Shown: in pieces, positions 53,840 to 61,068 of the stretch | Numbering within the stretch: the first letter of the stretch is position 1 | Layout: each line of letters begins with the position of its first letter | Origin: Ruegeria faecimaris | GTDB lineage: Bacteria > Pseudomonadota > Alphaproteobacteria > Rhodobacterales > Rhodobacteraceae | Assembly: GCF_900182615.1 (NCBI RefSeq) | Contig: NZ_FXTE01000008.1 | Location: forward strand, 62,001 to 126,000 | Direction: 5' to 3' | DNA: 64,000 nucleotides | Made by a program: the position numbers and the translations under genes | Notes under the pieces: model-generated | Told to the model about the DNA's origin: nothing | Seen by the model: the letters and a program-made list of their open reading frames with translations, nothing else | The model's database searches: none

Positions 53840-53915
53840 GCCCCTATAGCTCAGCTGGTAGAGCAACTGATTTGTAATCAGTAGGTCCGCGGTTCGAGTC
53901 CGTGTGGGGGCACCA
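53840..53915 (+). tRNA. tRNA-Thr (TGT anticodon)
   Basis: 76 bases including an encoded CCA. Acceptor stem GCCCCTA / TGGGGGC, D-arm AGCTCAGCTGGTAGAGC, anticodon stem-loop ACTGA-TTTGTAA-TCAGT (anticodon TGT reads ACA and related Thr codons), T-arm GGTTCGAGTCC. It marks the left border of an integrated element: the next 10 kb has phage genes and differs in composition. The 3' end probably holds the att site. Confidence 0.95.
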
Positions 53916-53970
53916 TTTAAATCATTGAAATTGAAAGATAAATCGAAGCGCAGCAATCTTGATGTGCTGT

Positions 53971-54100: not shown

Positions 54101-54892
54101 ATGTTGCAGACGTTCACAGATACCCGGCCCTACAGCCAGCCGTTATCGCCCCTTTCGGTCGATGGTGAACGCTACGCTCTGCCTGTTGACTTCGTTGATG
54201 GGCTTGCCTTTCTGCGACCTTTCGTCAAACGCCGCTGCAAGATGATTGAGAATTTTGTTCACATACTAAGTGGCAAGCTCTACATCGTGACGAATAACTT
54301 GGTTATCGACTACGATATTGGCAGCACGGACCTTCCTAACGCTTGTCTTGGACCCAATGAGATTCGAATTCTAGAAGCCTTCGAAACACCTCCTGTTGAG
54401 GTCATTTTTGATTCCAAAATGTTCCACTTCCATTGGGAGGATGGGCAACAATTCTACTTCGGAGGATCGGGCGCTTCTTGCGTCTACCTGTCTTCCGAAA
54501 CGCATGAACGCGCGGCAAACGACGCTTTCGACCGCTTTCTGCGGTTCAACGATAGCGTTGCAATCACTGATGCCGTGAAACGCGAAATACGCCGGATGCA
54601 CGGTGGTCCAAAAATGGCCAAGGACATCTTCCTAAACGAGCGAGCAATTCTGTCACGGATGAGCAGCGACGGAGAAACGTGGACTTCAGTTTTCACCACT
54701 CCCTTCGAGAACAACGCTGACCGCGTGATGCGCTTTGATCGCCAAGCGTTCCTTGGCATGATCAAAATTGCATCAGAGATCAACTTTGCTACCAGTCCAG
54801 TTTGCTTCCGTCACCAGCATGGACGTGGAATGCTCGTCGAGCTTACAACTGGGTCTGACCTTCCGGATTTCGAGGAGGGCGAAAATGACTGA
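54101..54892 (+). CDS. Phage/element protein, possible sliding-clamp-like fold
   Basis: 263 residues from ATG 54101; a TTG at 54044 would add 19. No signature is certain. The pattern of the N-terminal region (LAFLRPFVKRRCKMIENFVHILSGKLYIVTNNLVIDYDIG) and of the C-terminus (FLGMIKIASEINFATSPVCFRHQHGRGMLVELTT) resembles the alternating strand layout of beta-clamp/PCNA domains, but this is only by eye. First gene of a coupled three-gene operon (8-bp overlap with the next). Confidence 0.45.
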   Translation: MLQTFTDTRPYSQPLSPLSVDGERYALPVDFVDGLAFLRPFVKRRCKMIENFVHILSGKLYIVTNNLVIDYDIGSTDLPNACLGPNEIRILEAFETPPVEVIFDSKMFHFHWEDGQQFYFGGSGASCVYLSSETHERAANDAFDRFLRFNDSVAITDAVKREIRRMHGGPKMAKDIFLNERAILSRMSSDGETWTSVFTTPFENNADRVMRFDRQAFLGMIKIASEINFATSPVCFRHQHGRGMLVELTTGSDLPDFEEGEND

Positions 54893-55517
54893 TCTGCGCG
54901 ATGGATTTCTGTATCACCCCGAAAGCGTAGCCACCACGGCGCAATTGGAACGATTGCTAGCCGGTGAGCACAACACCGCATTCGACGACCCGTTCGGGGC
55001 AGCGGTTCAAGAGGCCGAACAGGAGCTTCGCGATGAGGAAGAAAAGGAACGGAAAGCGCTAGAGCGCCTAAATTTGATCCGCGCCAAAATCGAACGCCTA
55101 AAGGCTCATAAAGTTGAGGTTGAAAAAGCGGTTCATCACTTCCTTGACACCGGTAAAATAGAAGACGTTTTGCTTCCTGCCTGCCGTGAATTGATCTCAA
55201 ATGAATGGCGTGCCTTCAGCGCGGCCGACGCTCCGGCTAAAGAGCAGGAAATCAAGGATGCACATGACACGCTGTCAGACCAACTTGGAGATGATTGGGA
55301 AATTTCTGAGACCAAGGCGGACGACAAGTTTGTCTATGTAACTATAAAACGTCTGCGGGCTGTGGCGGCACCCGAACGTCCATACGCCGATGAGATCGTA
55401 GCTTGCATCACCGAAAAGGTCAGAGCTGCGTTCAAGACTTACCGACTCGACTTCAAAACTCGCGCCCGCCCGCTACGTTTGATGGCTGTGGCCGCCAGTC
55501 CGAGAGCCTCGCCATGA
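54885..55517 (+). CDS. Coiled-coil element protein, unknown function
   Basis: 210 residues. Residues 38-75 form a charged coiled coil (EQELRDEEEKERKALERLNL). The C-terminal half is basic (KTRARPLRL). Overlaps both neighbours (8 bp at the start, 4 bp ATGA at the end), so it should be translated together with them. No family recognised. Confidence 0.5.
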   Translation: MTDLRDGFLYHPESVATTAQLERLLAGEHNTAFDDPFGAAVQEAEQELRDEEEKERKALERLNLIRAKIERLKAHKVEVEKAVHHFLDTGKIEDVLLPACRELISNEWRAFSAADAPAKEQEIKDAHDTLSDQLGDDWEISETKADDKFVYVTIKRLRAVAAPERPYADEIVACITEKVRAAFKTYRLDFKTRARPLRLMAVAASPRASP

Positions 55518-55834
55518 ACAAGATCGAGTGGGACACAGCAGACGGTGTACTTGAAGAATCTAACCTCTGGAAACTGTTCTCGGAATGCCCCGACCAACCA
55601 AGTGAAACCATCCTGTTCTTCTCGCAAATCAAACCGTTTCTTTCAAAAATGCGGTTGGAGGATGATACGCGATATTACCAAGTCTACCTGCACGGGACAG
55701 TGGCCGAGGGGCCAGCTGACTCTCAAACCCGTGCGGTCGTGACGCAGCGGAACCTACGACGTGTTGCAAACGTTATCGCGGGGCGCGGCAATAGCGACGC
55801 TGCAATTCAGTATCTTGGAATCAAGTCTGATTAG
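55514..55834 (+). CDS. Element protein, unknown function
   Basis: 106 residues from ATG 55514, overlapping the upstream stop by ATGA. Sequence MNKIEWDTADGVLEESNLWK and VTQRNLRRVANVIAGRGNS. No family recognised. Third gene of the operon. Confidence 0.5.
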   Translation: MNKIEWDTADGVLEESNLWKLFSECPDQPSETILFFSQIKPFLSKMRLEDDTRYYQVYLHGTVAEGPADSQTRAVVTQRNLRRVANVIAGRGNSDAAIQYLGIKSD

Positions 55835-55985: not shown

Positions 55986-56882
55986 TTGAACACATGGTTG
56001 ATTCCTTTGACTGAAATACGCCCTCATTTGAAGCAAGCCAAGTATGGCGACTTAACACAGGGCACAGTTTTTTCTTGTGCCAGTGCTTCTCGATATAACG
56101 GTTGTGAAGTGCATGGATTGGCCATTACGGCTCGGTGTGATTTTGCGCAACGAAAGTTCCCTGTTCTCAACTACGTTCCAGTCGTTGAGCTTCAAGATTG
56201 GGTTCGAAGGGACGGTCTGGATATTTTGGTTGACCAAGAATTGAACGATCAGCGTGGGCAGTTGGTAAGGATGCTCAAACAGGCGCAGGTGTCGGAAGCC
56301 CTACTACAGGCGGTTCCGCATCGAGAAATCGCGGAGACCCACTTTCAAAAGGATGAAGGATCGAAGGCAAAAAAAACCGCGGCAAAAAAATTTCATGATT
56401 TGGTTGATGAAATGGAGAAGTTTTCTTTACTTGTGGCAGCCGACGGAGGTGGTGACATTTTCGAGTGGTTTACCCGAGAGCGTGGAAAGCAAGTAGGCGA
56501 GTTGGTGCGTCGCCTAAGTCGCCATGCGGTTCTCGGGCACTATTTTCTTGAGGCGCTGGAGCCGGACACAACAGAACACAAAGGCTATGTTTGCTTATTG
56601 CGGGAAGTATCAACAATCCCACGCCCCGTCGCAGACAAGCTAGGGAAGGGCCTCGATCAATCGACTTACGCCAAACAATGCAACAATAGTCAATTTGGCT
56701 CGCAATTACAGATACCCGAAGGTGGGCTAGCAATGCCGCTGATTGAAATCGGTTCCCCAACTATTGAACATATCATGCAATCGTTCAGCAACTTGTTTGG
56801 GAGAATTGGCGTCGCTGACCCAATTGAAACCGTGATTGGCAAAATTGTTGATTCTTGCCTGACTCATGCGGAGAAAGATTAA
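55986..56882 (+). CDS. Helicase partner protein, unknown family
   Basis: 298 residues starting at TTG 55986 (MNTWLIPLTEIRPHLKQAKYGDL). The first 70 residues have GLAITARCDFAQRKFPVLNYVP, with a lone Cys-Asp that resembles a catalytic motif. The middle is helical and Lys/Glu-rich. The C-terminus IGSPTIEHIMQSFSNLFGRIGVADP is hydrophobic and looks conserved. The stop is directly joined to the helicase start (TAA then ATG), so both are translated from one message. Likely a partner of the helicase; no family recognised. Confidence 0.5.
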   Translation: MNTWLIPLTEIRPHLKQAKYGDLTQGTVFSCASASRYNGCEVHGLAITARCDFAQRKFPVLNYVPVVELQDWVRRDGLDILVDQELNDQRGQLVRMLKQAQVSEALLQAVPHREIAETHFQKDEGSKAKKTAAKKFHDLVDEMEKFSLLVAADGGGDIFEWFTRERGKQVGELVRRLSRHAVLGHYFLEALEPDTTEHKGYVCLLREVSTIPRPVADKLGKGLDQSTYAKQCNNSQFGSQLQIPEGGLAMPLIEIGSPTIEHIMQSFSNLFGRIGVADPIETVIGKIVDSCLTHAEKD

Positions 56883-59189
56883 ATGAAGTATATTTGCATT
56901 GATGACGGTGCCGTTGCGGAGCTAATTTCTGGAAAGGAATACCAGTCAATTGATTTTGAGGAAGGCGACCGCTTGGTAAATGCACTGTCGGGCAAAGTGC
57001 GGTTTGTCGCGAAGCTACGAAATGTTGTTCTGATTCAAGACGAGGAGGGTGTTTTCCTCACTACCAGCGGCCCTTGGAAAAGAAAACGATACTTGGTGAT
57101 TGACTGCGATCAATCTTCCCTTTTCACCGGATTGAGGTCAGGGGAGACCCTCCAATCCTTTCAAAAGCTACTTCGTTTTTGCGCGAAGTTTTGGTCGGGT
57201 GGTGTACTAAATAGAGCGGAAAAAATCATTAGTGGAACGTCGAAGGCGGTAATATTCCCGCTTCCGTATTCGACAAAGCCCTATCGCATTGCGATTGAAC
57301 GAGAGCCTTGGAAAGTCCGGCTTCAAAAGCGCGACATGAATGGGCACTTCTTACTCGTCTACAAGACTGGTTGGGATGGTGCCGATTCCGCTACGGAAGA
57401 AGCCAACGAGACAAATTTTCGACTAGTTTTTGAGCGATTGCCGAATATCTATGCCTCTGCGGCAAAGATTGATAAGGACCTAAGTAGTGTTAGGCCAAAT
57501 GAGCAAGTGGCTTCAACCGATCTAGGATCGGAAGTTAGCACGCCTAGGCCGGCCCACCTACCTTTCAAAGAGTGGATTCCACATCTTACAGCAAAACAGA
57601 GAGATTTTGTTTTCTCAGACTCAAGCACGCCTCACCGTTTGCAAGGGCCTGCAGGAACGGGCAAGACGCTTTCGCTCATACTCAGGACAGTCCGAACGCT
57701 TTTGGATGCGGAGCGGAAAAAGACGACATGCCACGCGCTCTTGATCACGCACAGCGAAGCGACAAGAGCAGCCATTCAAGACACATTGTCGGTCATCGAC
57801 CCTTGTGATTTTCAGAGCCGCAGCCGAAAGGTCGATGCGGTCGCCTTGTCGGTCGAGACATTGGCTTCATTGTGCGCTGATGTACTGCGTCAGTCTATTA
57901 GCGAGTCGGAGTTCATTGACCGCGATGCCCAAGACTCCAAGCTTTTGCAGCAGATGTACATAGACCAAGCGATTGAGGTGGTGAAAAGCGAAGACCTTCC
58001 CTCGTTCAAACCACACCTAAGTAGAGGCTTCAAAACTGCGTTCGAAAGCACGGAAGCTGAGGAACTTTCATCGCTATTTCAGCACGAAATAAGCGTCCTT
58101 ATTAAGGGCCGGGCTGGAGACTCTTTCGACGTATACAAGAATTGCCCAGCACTTGAATATGGCTTACCCGTTTCCAACGATGCTGACAAAGGTTTGGCAT
58201 TTCGCGTGTACCAGCGTTACCAAGAGCAACTCGAATCCTCTAGTCAGTTTGATACGGATGACGTTGTCATTTCTGCCACCGGCCAACTTGACACACCTAT
58301 CTGGCGTAGACGAAGGTCGCGTGATGGATATGATTTCATAGCGGTGGATGAAACGCATCTTTTCAACATTAACGAGCTTCATGTTTTCCATCATTTTACC
58401 CGAGACACTGCGGCGCTTCCAATTTCGTTCACAGTGGATCAAGCACAAGGTGTCGGAGATCGGGGTTGGAACGATATTTCCAAATTCTCAGACCTATTTG
58501 GTCAAGACGATTCAAAGGGTGAGAATAGTACCATTGTCACCGCAGTTTTCAGAAACTCCCCTCAAATACGCGAGTTTTGCCAATCTGTCTTGGCCTCCGG
58601 AGCTATGCTGTTCACTAATTTCGAAAATACACTTTTGGAGTCGCAAAGCGTCTTTACTGCGGAAGATGAAAGAAAGTCTCAACCTGTTGATTATATAGAG
58701 TTTCCAAATGACAATACGATGATTGAAGGTGCTTTCAAGAGGGCAGAGGAACTTCTTTCGAAAACTGAATCTAGTCGATCCCAAGTGCTTATTACCAGCT
58801 TGTGCGACGATGTTCTAAAAGACCTTCGTGAATACGCAAGCAACAACAACAAGCCGGTCACGTATCTTGAGCGAAGGGGAGACTTTGTTAGGGTAAAACA
58901 AGCTGAAAGGTCAGGGCACTTAGTGCTTGGTCATGCCGATTTCGTTGGAGGGCTTGAGTTCAATGTTGTCGTTATCGTCGGGGTGGATAAAGGTCGTGTT
59001 CCGCATGAGGGTGAAACAGCAGACTCAAATTCGCGCAGCTTTGCGTCCTACTCCGCGCACAATAGGCTCTACGTCGCCTCCTCAAGGGCAAGATACGCGC
59101 TGAATATCCTAGGTGTGAAATCGCGTGGCCCGAGTGATATTCTCCAAGGTGCCAAGGCCAGCAAACTTATTGACGGAGTTGTTTCCTGA
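56883..59189 (+). CDS. UvrD-like superfamily I helicase with novel N-terminal domain
   Basis: 768 residues. Residues 1-230 have no recognised domain. A helicase core follows: Q-motif-like LTAKQRDFVF, Walker A LQGPAGTGKTLSLI (residue 253), ALLITHSEATR, Walker B FIAVDETHLF (DETH instead of DEAQ), FTVDQAQGV, VFRNSPQIREF, VGGLEFNVVVIVGVDKGRVP, and HNRLYVASSRARYAL. No C-terminal nuclease motif is visible. Joined to the 298-residue partner gene. Candidate anti-phage defence pair. Confidence 0.75.
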   Translation: MKYICIDDGAVAELISGKEYQSIDFEEGDRLVNALSGKVRFVAKLRNVVLIQDEEGVFLTTSGPWKRKRYLVIDCDQSSLFTGLRSGETLQSFQKLLRFCAKFWSGGVLNRAEKIISGTSKAVIFPLPYSTKPYRIAIEREPWKVRLQKRDMNGHFLLVYKTGWDGADSATEEANETNFRLVFERLPNIYASAAKIDKDLSSVRPNEQVASTDLGSEVSTPRPAHLPFKEWIPHLTAKQRDFVFSDSSTPHRLQGPAGTGKTLSLILRTVRTLLDAERKKTTCHALLITHSEATRAAIQDTLSVIDPCDFQSRSRKVDAVALSVETLASLCADVLRQSISESEFIDRDAQDSKLLQQMYIDQAIEVVKSEDLPSFKPHLSRGFKTAFESTEAEELSSLFQHEISVLIKGRAGDSFDVYKNCPALEYGLPVSNDADKGLAFRVYQRYQEQLESSSQFDTDDVVISATGQLDTPIWRRRRSRDGYDFIAVDETHLFNINELHVFHHFTRDTAALPISFTVDQAQGVGDRGWNDISKFSDLFGQDDSKGENSTIVTAVFRNSPQIREFCQSVLASGAMLFTNFENTLLESQSVFTAEDERKSQPVDYIEFPNDNTMIEGAFKRAEELLSKTESSRSQVLITSLCDDVLKDLREYASNNNKPVTYLERRGDFVRVKQAERSGHLVLGHADFVGGLEFNVVVIVGVDKGRVPHEGETADSNSRSFASYSAHNRLYVASSRARYALNILGVKSRGPSDILQGAKASKLIDGVVS

Positions 59190-59334: not shown

Positions 59335-60072
59335 TCAATACCACCCGCGCAGCGTGTGCGTCGTGACCATCTTCGGGCGCAGGTATTGCGACGCGAACGC
59401 GCCGACGATGACCGCAATCCCCAAATCCCCATGACCGCCCGCTGACCTTGACTGCGTGATGATCTGGTTTCCTGCTGCCGTTGTCTGCAAGGAGAAGGAA
59501 GCCAGGTCGGATGCGATCTCGTCGCGCAGCGGCAGGTCGTGCGCAAATTTGAGATCACCCGAGGCAAACAAAACGGAGAGGTTTTCGATCATGAATGTCT
59601 TCCCTGCGTTGACGTACCGCGAGCTTTCCTTGCGCCAAGACTGCCCGCCCGTCATTTGCACCGCATGGTGATCGACTGATTGATCCCAGAGCATGTCAGA
59701 GACGACCCTGCCGAGGCTCGTTCCATCTAAAACCAATTCCGACTTGCCCCCGAAAGGCGGCGCGTTGCGCAGGCGGATCAGGTAGTCAACGACGTCCACA
59801 TAGGACACGCCACGGAAGCGGTCGGCGTAAACGATGGAACGGTGGCGTGGCCCAACGATCACTTTCGAGCCGTCAACGATGGGCAACGCCTCATCTTTAA
59901 TTACTGTCACAGCCGTAAAATCATTTGCTTGTCCGAGATCAGCCGCAACCCAGTAATTTTGATGCCCTGTGACGCGTTCTATCGCGGGGTCTTGGTTCGT
60001 TTCGTTGACCACGCGCCCGTCAGGCAGATAGACAAGATTGAGTGCGGTTTCGTAGTTCACATCTTGGGACAT
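59335..60072 (-). CDS. Terminase large subunit, nuclease half (split TerL)
   Basis: 245 residues from ATG 60072 behind GGAGGGCGCGAT. RNase H-like nuclease fold: WVAADLGQANDFTAVTVIKD (two acidic residues D45 and D51), SELVLDGTSLGRVVSDML, and GGHGDLGIAVIVGAFA. This is the C-terminal half of a large terminase. It begins 16 bp inside the end of the ATPase half, in another frame. It is the last packaging gene; no portal gene follows to the left. Confidence 0.8.
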   Translation of the reverse strand: MSQDVNYETALNLVYLPDGRVVNETNQDPAIERVTGHQNYWVAADLGQANDFTAVTVIKDEALPIVDGSKVIVGPRHRSIVYADRFRGVSYVDVVDYLIRLRNAPPFGGKSELVLDGTSLGRVVSDMLWDQSVDHHAVQMTGGQSWRKESSRYVNAGKTFMIENLSVLFASGDLKFAHDLPLRDEIASDLASFSLQTTAAGNQIITQSRSAGGHGDLGIAVIVGAFASQYLRPKMVTTHTLRGWY

Positions 60073-60836
60073 ATCGCGCCCTCCGTGCTTGTTGCTTTTT
60101 CGATGATTGAGAGGTCGAAATAGCTGGTGCCATCCGAGAGCAGTTCGCATTCGATCTCTTGGCGGAATTTGGTCGCGGACAACGTGCGACGCATCCGTTC
60201 CACTTTGTCTTTCAATCGCGGGATGTCCGTGCCTTTGACGACGATGCGGTGAACACCATCACCCGGCTTTGCGTCGAGGAACAATCGAGCGAAATAGTTG
60301 TTTTTGCCGGCAGGAGTTGACGAGAAGTAGACTTGCCCTTTTTCCGTCAGCATCGGCAAGACACCCGCAATCAGGTCTTCCCCGCCACCTTCGCCTTGCA
60401 AGAATGCGCATTCGTCAATGATCAGACACGACACCGAAGGATAACCGCGAATGGTGTCCGACGTAGACGGCAGCGCGACGACGCGCGCACCGTTCGACAT
60501 TTCGAGTTCGGTGAGAGTCGAGCGGGTAATGACCAATTCGGTGCGCTTCAACTGTCGCCCGATTTCTCGCGCGATGATCTTCGCTTGTCGTTCCGCAGGC
60601 GCAACGCAGATGGTCAAGGATTCCGGGATGTGCAATTCCTCGACCGAGCGGGCGGCGAGAACAGACGTCTTGCCCGCCTGACGGCCAACGCGCAGGGCGA
60701 CCTCCGTTGCCTGCGTGGTAAATGCGTCGATCTGCCAAGGATCAGGCTCATGGCCGATCCAATGGCGTAGACGCGCGGCAGGATCGAGCGAGCGTTCAAG
60801 CTCTGCGCACCACGGTATGAGGGCATCAAAGGGCAT
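60057..60836 (-). CDS. Terminase large subunit, ATPase half (split TerL)
   Basis: 259 residues from ATG 60836 (frame open further upstream is not used). Walker A in VALRVGRQAGKTSVLAARS near residue 51, Walker B CLIIDECAFLQGEG near residue 140, and coupling motif YFSSTPAGKNNYFARLF. The sequence ends with ELLSDGTSYFDLSIIEKA, just where a normal TerL would continue into the nuclease domain. Drives phage DNA packaging. Confidence 0.85.
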   Translation of the reverse strand: MPFDALIPWCAELERSLDPAARLRHWIGHEPDPWQIDAFTTQATEVALRVGRQAGKTSVLAARSVEELHIPESLTICVAPAERQAKIIAREIGRQLKRTELVITRSTLTELEMSNGARVVALPSTSDTIRGYPSVSCLIIDECAFLQGEGGGEDLIAGVLPMLTEKGQVYFSSTPAGKNNYFARLFLDAKPGDGVHRIVVKGTDIPRLKDKVERMRRTLSATKFRQEIECELLSDGTSYFDLSIIEKATSTEGAICPKM

Positions 60837-60837
60837 G

Positions 60838-61068
60838 TTACTGCCCCATCTGACAGGCGCGGCAACAACCCATCGAATAACGCGGGGAGATGTGGCCGTT
60901 CTTGCATGGCTTGCCTGTGAAATACATGCCCGCCCCTTTTGCCTCACGACGGGACGCAGGTAGTTCAACCCATTCGGGATGACCGACCGCGTTGGCTGCT
61001 TCAAGCCGCCTCGCATATTCGCGCGCGTAGTGATCCCATCCGAGGAATTCTGAATGGGGCGACTTCAT
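60838..61068 (-). CDS. Small phage zinc-finger/HNH-like protein
   Basis: 76 residues. C-terminus YFTGKPCKNGHISPRYSMGCCRACQMGQ has a CxxGH plus CxxC pattern, as in zinc-binding parts of phage HNH proteins. The N-terminal half has FLGWDHYAREYARRLEAAN. Located between terminase subunits, overlapping the previous gene by ATGA-type spacing. Confidence 0.6.
   Translation of the reverse strand: MKSPHSEFLGWDHYAREYARRLEAANAVGHPEWVELPASRREAKGAGMYFTGKPCKNGHISPRYSMGCCRACQMGQ

Follow-up and report, generated by a model that had tools for sequence, protein, structure and literature searches.

Within a 64,000-nucleotide stretch of the Ruegeria faecimaris genome (contig NZ_FXTE01000008.1, positions 62,001 to 126,000; hereafter the window), we characterized two abutting genes encoding a small partner protein and a UvrD-like superfamily 1 (SF1) helicase. 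The pair is probably a two-gene anti-phage system, serving exclusion between mobile elements, in which a helicase sensor or motor is combined with a toxin-fold effector. Because the pair travels on prophages, satellites and plasmids, several times at spots occupied by defence genes, we consider it a probably uncatalogued defence system. A preceding sequence-only reading of this DNA had proposed an undescribed two-gene defence system; neither of the conditions it had named as refuting came true, and the proposal is partly supported, its defence part standing by association. We hold the defence function, to which the genomic association points, to be likely, whereas the proposed division of labour between sensor and effector is evenly poised, and cleavage of nucleic acids by the partner is doubtful. 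The pair comprises the following features:

55986..56882, plus strand: partner gene, TTG start, 298 aa counted from the first TTG
56883..59189, plus strand: UvrD-like SF1 helicase gene, ATG start, 768 aa, DExH-type motif II
56883..57578, plus strand: helicase N-terminal domain, ~232 aa, no Pfam match up to E 10
57579..59186, plus strand: helicase core, with a C-terminal 2A domain (residues ~554-767) that matches the C-terminal domains of HelD (6vsx) and 3dmn

The two open reading frames (ORFs) follow each other with 0 nt in between, TAA then ATG, exactly as the sequence-only reading had described. The true start of the partner is uncertain among four in-frame TTG codons at 55986, 55998, 56007 and 56028, no ATG being present near the start, and a form of ~294 aa was also used for numbering. 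Four of the five close relatives, the loci L001, L002, L003 and L006, likewise offer only GTG or TTG start candidates, the fifth (L004) having an ATG. Both genes evolve as coding sequences, with third codon positions being the most divergent in 6/6 locus pairs compared.

The partner gene lies directly upstream of the helicase gene in 20 of the 20 examined loci that include upstream sequence, namely the window, L001-L004, L006-L010, L012, L015-L017, L020, L083, L084 and L092-L094. Left out of this count were L024 and L025, whose E. coli type is already represented by L009, as well as L005, L018 and L021-L023, which repeat counted loci; L011/L013 and L014 start at the helicase start and therefore fall outside it. 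Among the 20, L012 and L017 are near-identical, and some copies are damaged: the L094 partner is in three fragments, the L083 helicase is split and the L010 helicase is truncated. Across 13 loci, the gap between partner and helicase ranges from -14 to +13 nt, and the identity matrices of the two proteins are correlated with r 0.975 (Mantel p 0.0001). The exceptions to the gene order that we saw are E. coli remnants: NZ_CP049970 has no partner and carries a helicase shortened near an IS1 insertion sequence (IS), and in NZ_JCCJTA010000002 only part of the partner is left. A full-length partner stands beside a broken helicase in five records (Rhizobium pRSpC104a, E. coli NZ_CP126943 and NZ_CP126945, Klebsiella NZ_OQ281831 and NZ_MW316656), and the reverse state, an intact helicase with a broken partner, is present on other E. 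coli plasmids. Since both kinds of record exist, neither gene appears to need the other for cell survival at native expression, provided that the remaining gene is expressed.

Relatives were retrieved from genome contigs (L001-L004), viral contigs (L011, L013-L017, L020), plasmids, a P2-like Klebsiella phage (one phage, two records) and further genomes. The two genes co-occur in Alpha-, Beta- and Gammaproteobacteria, a recurrence on which the sequence-only proposal had depended. On plasmids, records with a helicase and with a partner match numbered 79 and 78 in E. coli, 4 and 4 in Klebsiella, 2 and 2 in Shigella, 1 and 1 in each of Leisingera, Azoarcus, Paraburkholderia and Rhizobium, 2 and 0 in Agrobacterium, and 1 and 0 in Undibacterium; when the Undibacterium record and one of the Agrobacterium records were opened, the partner was present, being too diverged for the plasmid search. 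A ColV-type pair, matched over at least 80% of its length, was found in 109 of 5426 (2%) complete E. coli genomes, all on plasmids, which makes the family testable in E. coli. In 11 of the 120 E. coli genomes with a ColV-type match, less than 80% of the pair was covered, and those listed retained only pieces of one gene or of both, or matched over a short stretch close to the query end. Chromosomal copies in E. coli were found at 0/121 places with the ColV query and 0/113 with the satellite query, and the L020 version as query gave no match in E. coli genomes. Because a partner homologue was detected in only 2 of 295 family genomes and 4 of 398 phylum genomes, both counts including the window's own genome, and with a narrower profile in 1 of 385 class genomes, that one being the window's own, the pair is a rare, patchy cargo. 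The helicase was likewise found in 1 of 101 relatives, again the window's own. On the E. coli plasmid pM505-a (L024), a ColV-type pair is flanked by IS elements, with tet(B) about 4.5 kb away, and the pair can thus travel with resistance plasmids.

The positions that the pair takes within mobile elements speak for defence. The parts of PMC9122126 covered here describe the psu-int position of P4-like elements and the gpA-gpQ position of P2-like elements as hotspots of anti-phage systems. In L020, the gene order is Psu (Pfam E 8.7e-89), pair, integrase, corresponding to the P4-like psu-int position, and in L016 the integrase comes first, followed by the pair, a Psu-like gene (phrog_6165, E 1.1e-22) and, farther along, a P4-type primase. 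The P2-like phage L012 carries the pair at the gpA-gpQ position, with the nicking-at-origin gene on one side and the portal gene on the other, and L094 resembles, judged by eye, a decayed P4-type locus with Psu-like and integrase fragments. At other loci, genes resembling known defence components lie close by. In L002, a PDC-S25-type SIR2 gene (E 7.3e-167) is located 2.6 kb upstream of the pair, and in L004 the pair is directly preceded by an AAA_15 ATPase resembling AriA/Old, whose TOPRIM match falls under the Pfam cut-off. An IetA-like ATPase follows about 4 kb downstream in L010, beyond an IS21 element, and type I restriction-modification S (E 2.4e-64) and R (E 9.4e-172) genes precede the pair by ~1.2 kb and more in L092. 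Integrase and pair of L015 are separated by a HEPN gene and a GmrSD-type gene, the latter having NsnA (E 4.2e-68) and PD-T4-2_A (E 5.5e-45) as its best PADLOC models. Because NsnA scores higher than PD-T4-2_A and no PADLOC model fits the HEPN protein, we rejected PD-T4-2 as the identity of this neighbouring system and give it no name. Multiubiquitin, ThiF and DUF6527 genes are found directly upstream of the pair on an Agrobacterium plasmid (L084), and a WYL regulator and a multiubiquitin gene upstream of it in L083. Association with hotspots or defence genes was thus seen at several loci, not at every locus. As a side observation, the ThiF gene of L084 corresponds to DUF6791, and another, longer UvrD helicase gene precedes the multiubiquitin, ThiF and DUF6527 genes (L084:1003-6602).

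Profile searches and structure prediction, the routes by which the sequence-only reading had suggested checking the partner, gave no family beyond chance and a predicted MazF/CcdB-type fold, respectively. The window partner has no match beyond chance in Pfam, PHROGs or NCBIfam, and in the libraries searched there was no match to an annotated phage replication or recombination protein, the alternative that had been raised for it. Among 14 members of the partner family, no Pfam family was common to two members, and PADLOC 2023 returned only one weak single-member match; the four distant partners matched neither PADLOC nor Pfam, and no PADLOC 2023 model describes the partner. Matches confined to a single member, JetB (PADLOC, E 0.004) and AAA_14 (Pfam, E 0.0053), were dismissed as chance level, as were the remaining weak Pfam matches from 0.064 upward, including Gal11_ABD1 (E 0.093). 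The predicted structure of the partner is of fair quality (predicted local distance difference test score (pLDDT) 81.7, predicted template modelling score (pTM) 0.76). VIA-align 2, which rescored Foldseek's own candidates and is not independent of Foldseek, aligned it to MazF 4mzp_A with Z 10.2 and a root-mean-square deviation (rmsd) of 3.0 over 107/114 residues, to CcdB 2vub with Z 9.6 and to Kid 1m1f with Z 8.5. All 50 listed rows belong to the MazF/CcdB/Kid superfold, rank 50 still reaching Z 7.5, compared with a typical best Z of 7-8 and rank-50 Z of 4-5 (higher if mostly helical) for models without a clear match. From this model we predict a barrel of the MazF/CcdB type for the partner, interrupted at residues ~65-175 (294-aa form) by a helical insertion specific to the family.

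Conservation within the family concentrates on the predicted barrel. The ~110-residue helical insertion is poorly conserved, and of the 25 invariant residues in 17-294, 24 lie outside the insertion (65-175) and 1 inside. Invariant in 13/13 rows of two alignments are Q21, G22, G40, A45, C47, D48, K53, Q261 and G271 (window numbering). The conserved site can be written as Q-G ... G-x-x-[IV]-x-A-[RD]-C-D ... K ... Q ... G, the window having QGTV ... TARCD ... K where distant members have QGD-[VIL] ... [TN]ADCD ... K. At the C-terminal end, the segment SP..E..Q.....F.R.G is invariant in 14/14 close relatives. The 'TARCDF' motif and the 'IEHIMQSFSNLFGRIGV' tail, to which the sequence-only reading had drawn attention, are both present and both lie in conserved parts of the family. 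Together with the MazF/CcdB/Kid fold, the small gene directly upstream of the one it is paired with and the frequent plasmid location would suit a toxin-antitoxin (addiction) module having the partner as toxin and the helicase as antitoxin. We consider such a module very unlikely: known antitoxins are small, unlike the 768-aa helicase, and the five records in which a full-length partner accompanies a broken helicase argue against it, if those partners are expressed.

The helicase belongs to the UvrD family by its Pfam match (PF00580, E 4.6e-11), and the SF1 motifs Q, I, Ia, II, III, IV, V and VI are intact in 14/14 aligned proteins. Motif II reads DETH in all 14, extending to the relatives what had been noticed in the window, and DEVH, DELH and DEMH in the distant L020, L083 and L084, respectively. 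The absence of a C-terminal nuclease also held up, Pfam finding no nuclease domain in a protein that ends shortly past motif VI, and so did the unrecognised N-terminal domain of about 230 residues. Residues ~228-768 of the predicted structure align to UvrD, PcrA and Rep with a best Z of about 19-21 and an rmsd of about 10-11 across several domains, the whole-protein model being weak (pLDDT 71.1, pTM 0.39). The 2A domain alone aligns over its full length to HelD 6vsx (Z 20.0, rmsd 2.1, 159/159 residues) and to 3dmn (Z 20.0, rmsd 2.3, 161/161 residues). HelD acts by itself in recycling RNA polymerase and has an N-terminal arm of its own; the window helicase is paired with a partner gene. In a separate family of UvrD helicases (L068, L069-L082), the N-terminal domain is weakly RelE/HigB-like (PF05015, E 0.0069 for L068), and such helicases were present in 14 of 200 phylum genomes searched. 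Prompted by these proteins (L068 and 14 loci), we considered a RelE/ParE-like N-terminal domain for the window helicase as well; the idea is unsupported because the profile comparison gave P 0.09. Relatives defined by phrog_1967 were set aside as uninformative, because this is a general UvrD family with matches in 58/58 genomes.

A two-gene, helicase-gated logic is known for Gabija and Hachiman from the portions of the literature covered here, and we compared the pair with these and other systems. Gabija, combining the OLD nuclease GajA with the UvrD-like helicase GajB, shares the arrangement of two adjacent genes, one of them for a UvrD-like SF1 helicase. In the PADLOC comparison envisaged by the sequence-only reading, GajB is the best match of the window helicase, a partial and weak one (E 3.7e-11, best stretch residues 432-509). 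We rejected an identity with Gabija, as the GajA feature, an OLD-family ATPase with TOPRIM, was not found: 0/14 partners match GajA models (E up to 0.1), and the 14 partners are without AAA_15 or TOPRIM family match (E up to 10). The window helicase further differs by its 232-aa N-terminal domain lacking a family match. Hachiman, formed by the HamA nuclease and the HamB helicase, is alike in having a sensor helicase that restrains or releases a small effector encoded alongside. It was rejected too, as no HamA or HamB appeared among the PADLOC matches of the window proteins and the window helicase is a UvrD-type SF1 enzyme. HamB is an SF2-type helicase, and HamA belongs to a different nuclease family. 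MazF, Kid and CcdB toxins resemble the partner in its predicted barrel and differ in that the partner has a ~110-residue helical insertion and the MazF signature positions are not conserved; moreover, the adjoining gene encodes a helicase, with no small antitoxin gene directly beside the partner.

The pairing of a helicase with a DUF2290 protein, which the covered text of PMC9122126 reports as active against T7, is likewise a two-gene unit of helicase and small partner in a P4 hotspot. Identity with this system was rejected: none of the 14 partners matches PF10053, and hidden Markov models of partner and helicase have no match at E 1 among the 7 DUF2290 loci compared, whose short sequences (2.0-3.6 kb) include the neighbouring helicase only in part. 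No such pair is named in the covered parts of the literature searched, and it was not found in those of PMC9122126, PMC13092281 and PMC9519451; it may stand nameless among the 79 P4-hotspot groups of PMC9122126. If our interpretation is correct, the pair represents a helicase-plus-effector immune family absent from PADLOC 2023, with a new partner family.

We regard a helicase-gated effector as the parsimonious reading of the pair. The helicase would be an ATP-driven sensor or motor for some unusual state of nucleic acid that an invading phage brings about, and would then recruit or switch on the partner. The partner, as a MazF/CcdB-superfold effector with a conserved site of its own, would act on nucleic acid or on a nucleic-acid machine, and its action would stop the infection. 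A more specific version, which we put forward tentatively, is an as yet unreported immune family. Its effector would have the MazF/CcdB fold and a re-invented A[R/D]CD...K site in place of the MazF residues, and would be under a DExH-variant UvrD helicase and not under an antitoxin. Such a system would raise the question of how a helicase, taking the place of an antitoxin, keeps a toxin-like fold under control, and would link toxin modules with immunity based on helicase sensors. Its carriers across Proteobacteria would be phage satellites (P4-like included), P2-like phages, other prophages and plasmids (IncF/ColV included).

Several results weigh against this reading, the first group of which concerns the link to MazF. 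Foldseek placed MazF at the top rank, the best E being only 0.57. In hhalign, the partner profile had no secure similarity to 20 MazF/PemK-family ORFs (P 0.13); a wider partner profile gave P 0.037 in local and 0.017 in global mode, and the four distant partners alone P 0.0094, all with a probability below 5%. With the strands matched by element order, the Arg of the MazF 'RP' and the Thr, which are catalytic in MazF, have no conserved counterpart in the partners. The best local MazF/PemK profile match falls on the C-terminal segment expected from the fold and is a hint only; the MazF/PemK family PF02452 has no match in the 14 close and 4 distant partners. A viral-structure search with the partner yielded nothing at E 0.001, PemK-like proteins being among the weak rows, and when the partner profile was run against the sequences of solved structures, the best E was 0.068. 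We rejected MazF homology by sequence, as none of the profile comparisons gave a secure score. The N-terminal domain of the helicase also counts here, residues 1-232 matching no Pfam family up to E 10.

Because the MazF signature residues are lost and the match to CcdB is nearly equal, within about 1 Z of that to MazF, the strongest rival assigns the partner a non-catalytic role. The helicase alone would be active, displacing or degrading phage replication intermediates together with host nucleases, and the partner would serve as an adaptor, binding in the manner of CcdB to nucleic acid, to RNA polymerase or gyrase, or to a phage protein. CcdB poisons gyrase by binding, without catalysis. The strict invariance of the C-terminal SP..E..Q.....F.R.G segment would fit an adaptor, as would the resemblance of the 2A domain to HelD, an RNA-polymerase-binding helicase, 3dmn matching equally. 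The invariant polar set Q21, C47, D48, K53 and Q261 points in the other direction, since it could form a chemical or ligand site. On balance, an adaptor is a possibility that we take seriously and still place on the doubtful side.

The neighbourhoods themselves also contain evidence that does not favour a helicase-gated defence effector. No recognised defence neighbour was seen in L001, L003, L007, L009 and L093, where a minority of the flanking proteins was scanned, and SOS or translesion genes lie near the pair in three loci: a UmuC-like gene and an SOS-response peptidase in L006, ImuA, DNA polymerase Y and an error-prone polymerase in L008, and a umuC pseudogene in L024. Furthermore, the neighbour proteins compared with PADLOC and Pfam were picked as informative-looking, and the neighbour tally is therefore not an unbiased rate. 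The SOS-type genes, together with the weak sequence relatives of the helicase, the repair helicases PcrA, UvrD, Rep and AddA, could point to a housekeeping accessory of mobile elements, for DNA repair or replication, in place of a defence system. We judge this improbable because the pair is carried as cargo in P4 and P2 hotspots and in the vicinity of restriction, SIR2, OLD-like and GmrSD/HEPN genes, and because the partner is distributed patchily in phylum and family genomes; in addition, translesion genes are common on plasmids. Were the pair to serve DNA repair instead, one would still have to explain why it recurs at defence hotspots.

In the window, the pair is part of a discrete 14.8-kb element that is integrated in a tRNA-Thr gene and bounded by 52-bp att repeats. 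Its landmarks are:

53840..53915, plus strand: tRNA-Thr (TGT), the element's integration target (ARAGORN)
53867..53918, no strand: attL, a 52-bp perfect direct repeat over the 3' part of tRNA-Thr
L019:4622-4673, equal to window coordinate 68622-68673 and beyond the window: attR, the second 52-bp copy (adjoining stretch)
about 54101-55834, plus strand: apparent three-gene operon with ATGA-type overlaps, beside attL
59335-61016, minus strand: terminase large-subunit gene, two overlapping ORFs in different frames

The sequence-only reading had placed the pair in a tRNA-adjacent island of lower GC, between a small operon and a phage packaging module, and this description agrees with the features above. 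GC per 1-kb step is 0.479, 0.500 and 0.458 from 56 to 59 kb, i.e. 0.46-0.50 across the pair, compared with 0.55-0.60 in most window steps; it is likewise lowish, 0.50-0.54, at 51-56 kb. Besides the pair, the three-gene operon and terminase genes, the att copies enclose genes for a primase-like protein (phrog_21866, E 2.2e-6), an AlpA/excisionase-like protein and a tyrosine integrase. The integrase is encoded near attR, outside the window, and the pair lies in the attL half, far from it. Because the element measures 14.8 kb and no capsid, portal or tail gene was recognised among the proteins scanned, which cover a subset of its ORFs, it looks like a phage satellite or reduced prophage. Of the two terminase ORFs, the one at 60057-61016 encodes the ATPase part (phrog_7579) and that at 59335-60150 the second part (phrog_27743); a frameshift, a pseudogene or a sequencing error are candidates for the split. 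The genes of the three-gene operon are without notable Pfam, PADLOC, PHROG or NCBIfam match, the first having no plasmid match either. We rejected the operon as part of the system, given that within L001-L012 only L005, which is the window's own stretch, contained tblastn relatives; in addition, about 150 bp separate the operon from the pair. The operon is possibly a second, unknown cargo system of the same element.

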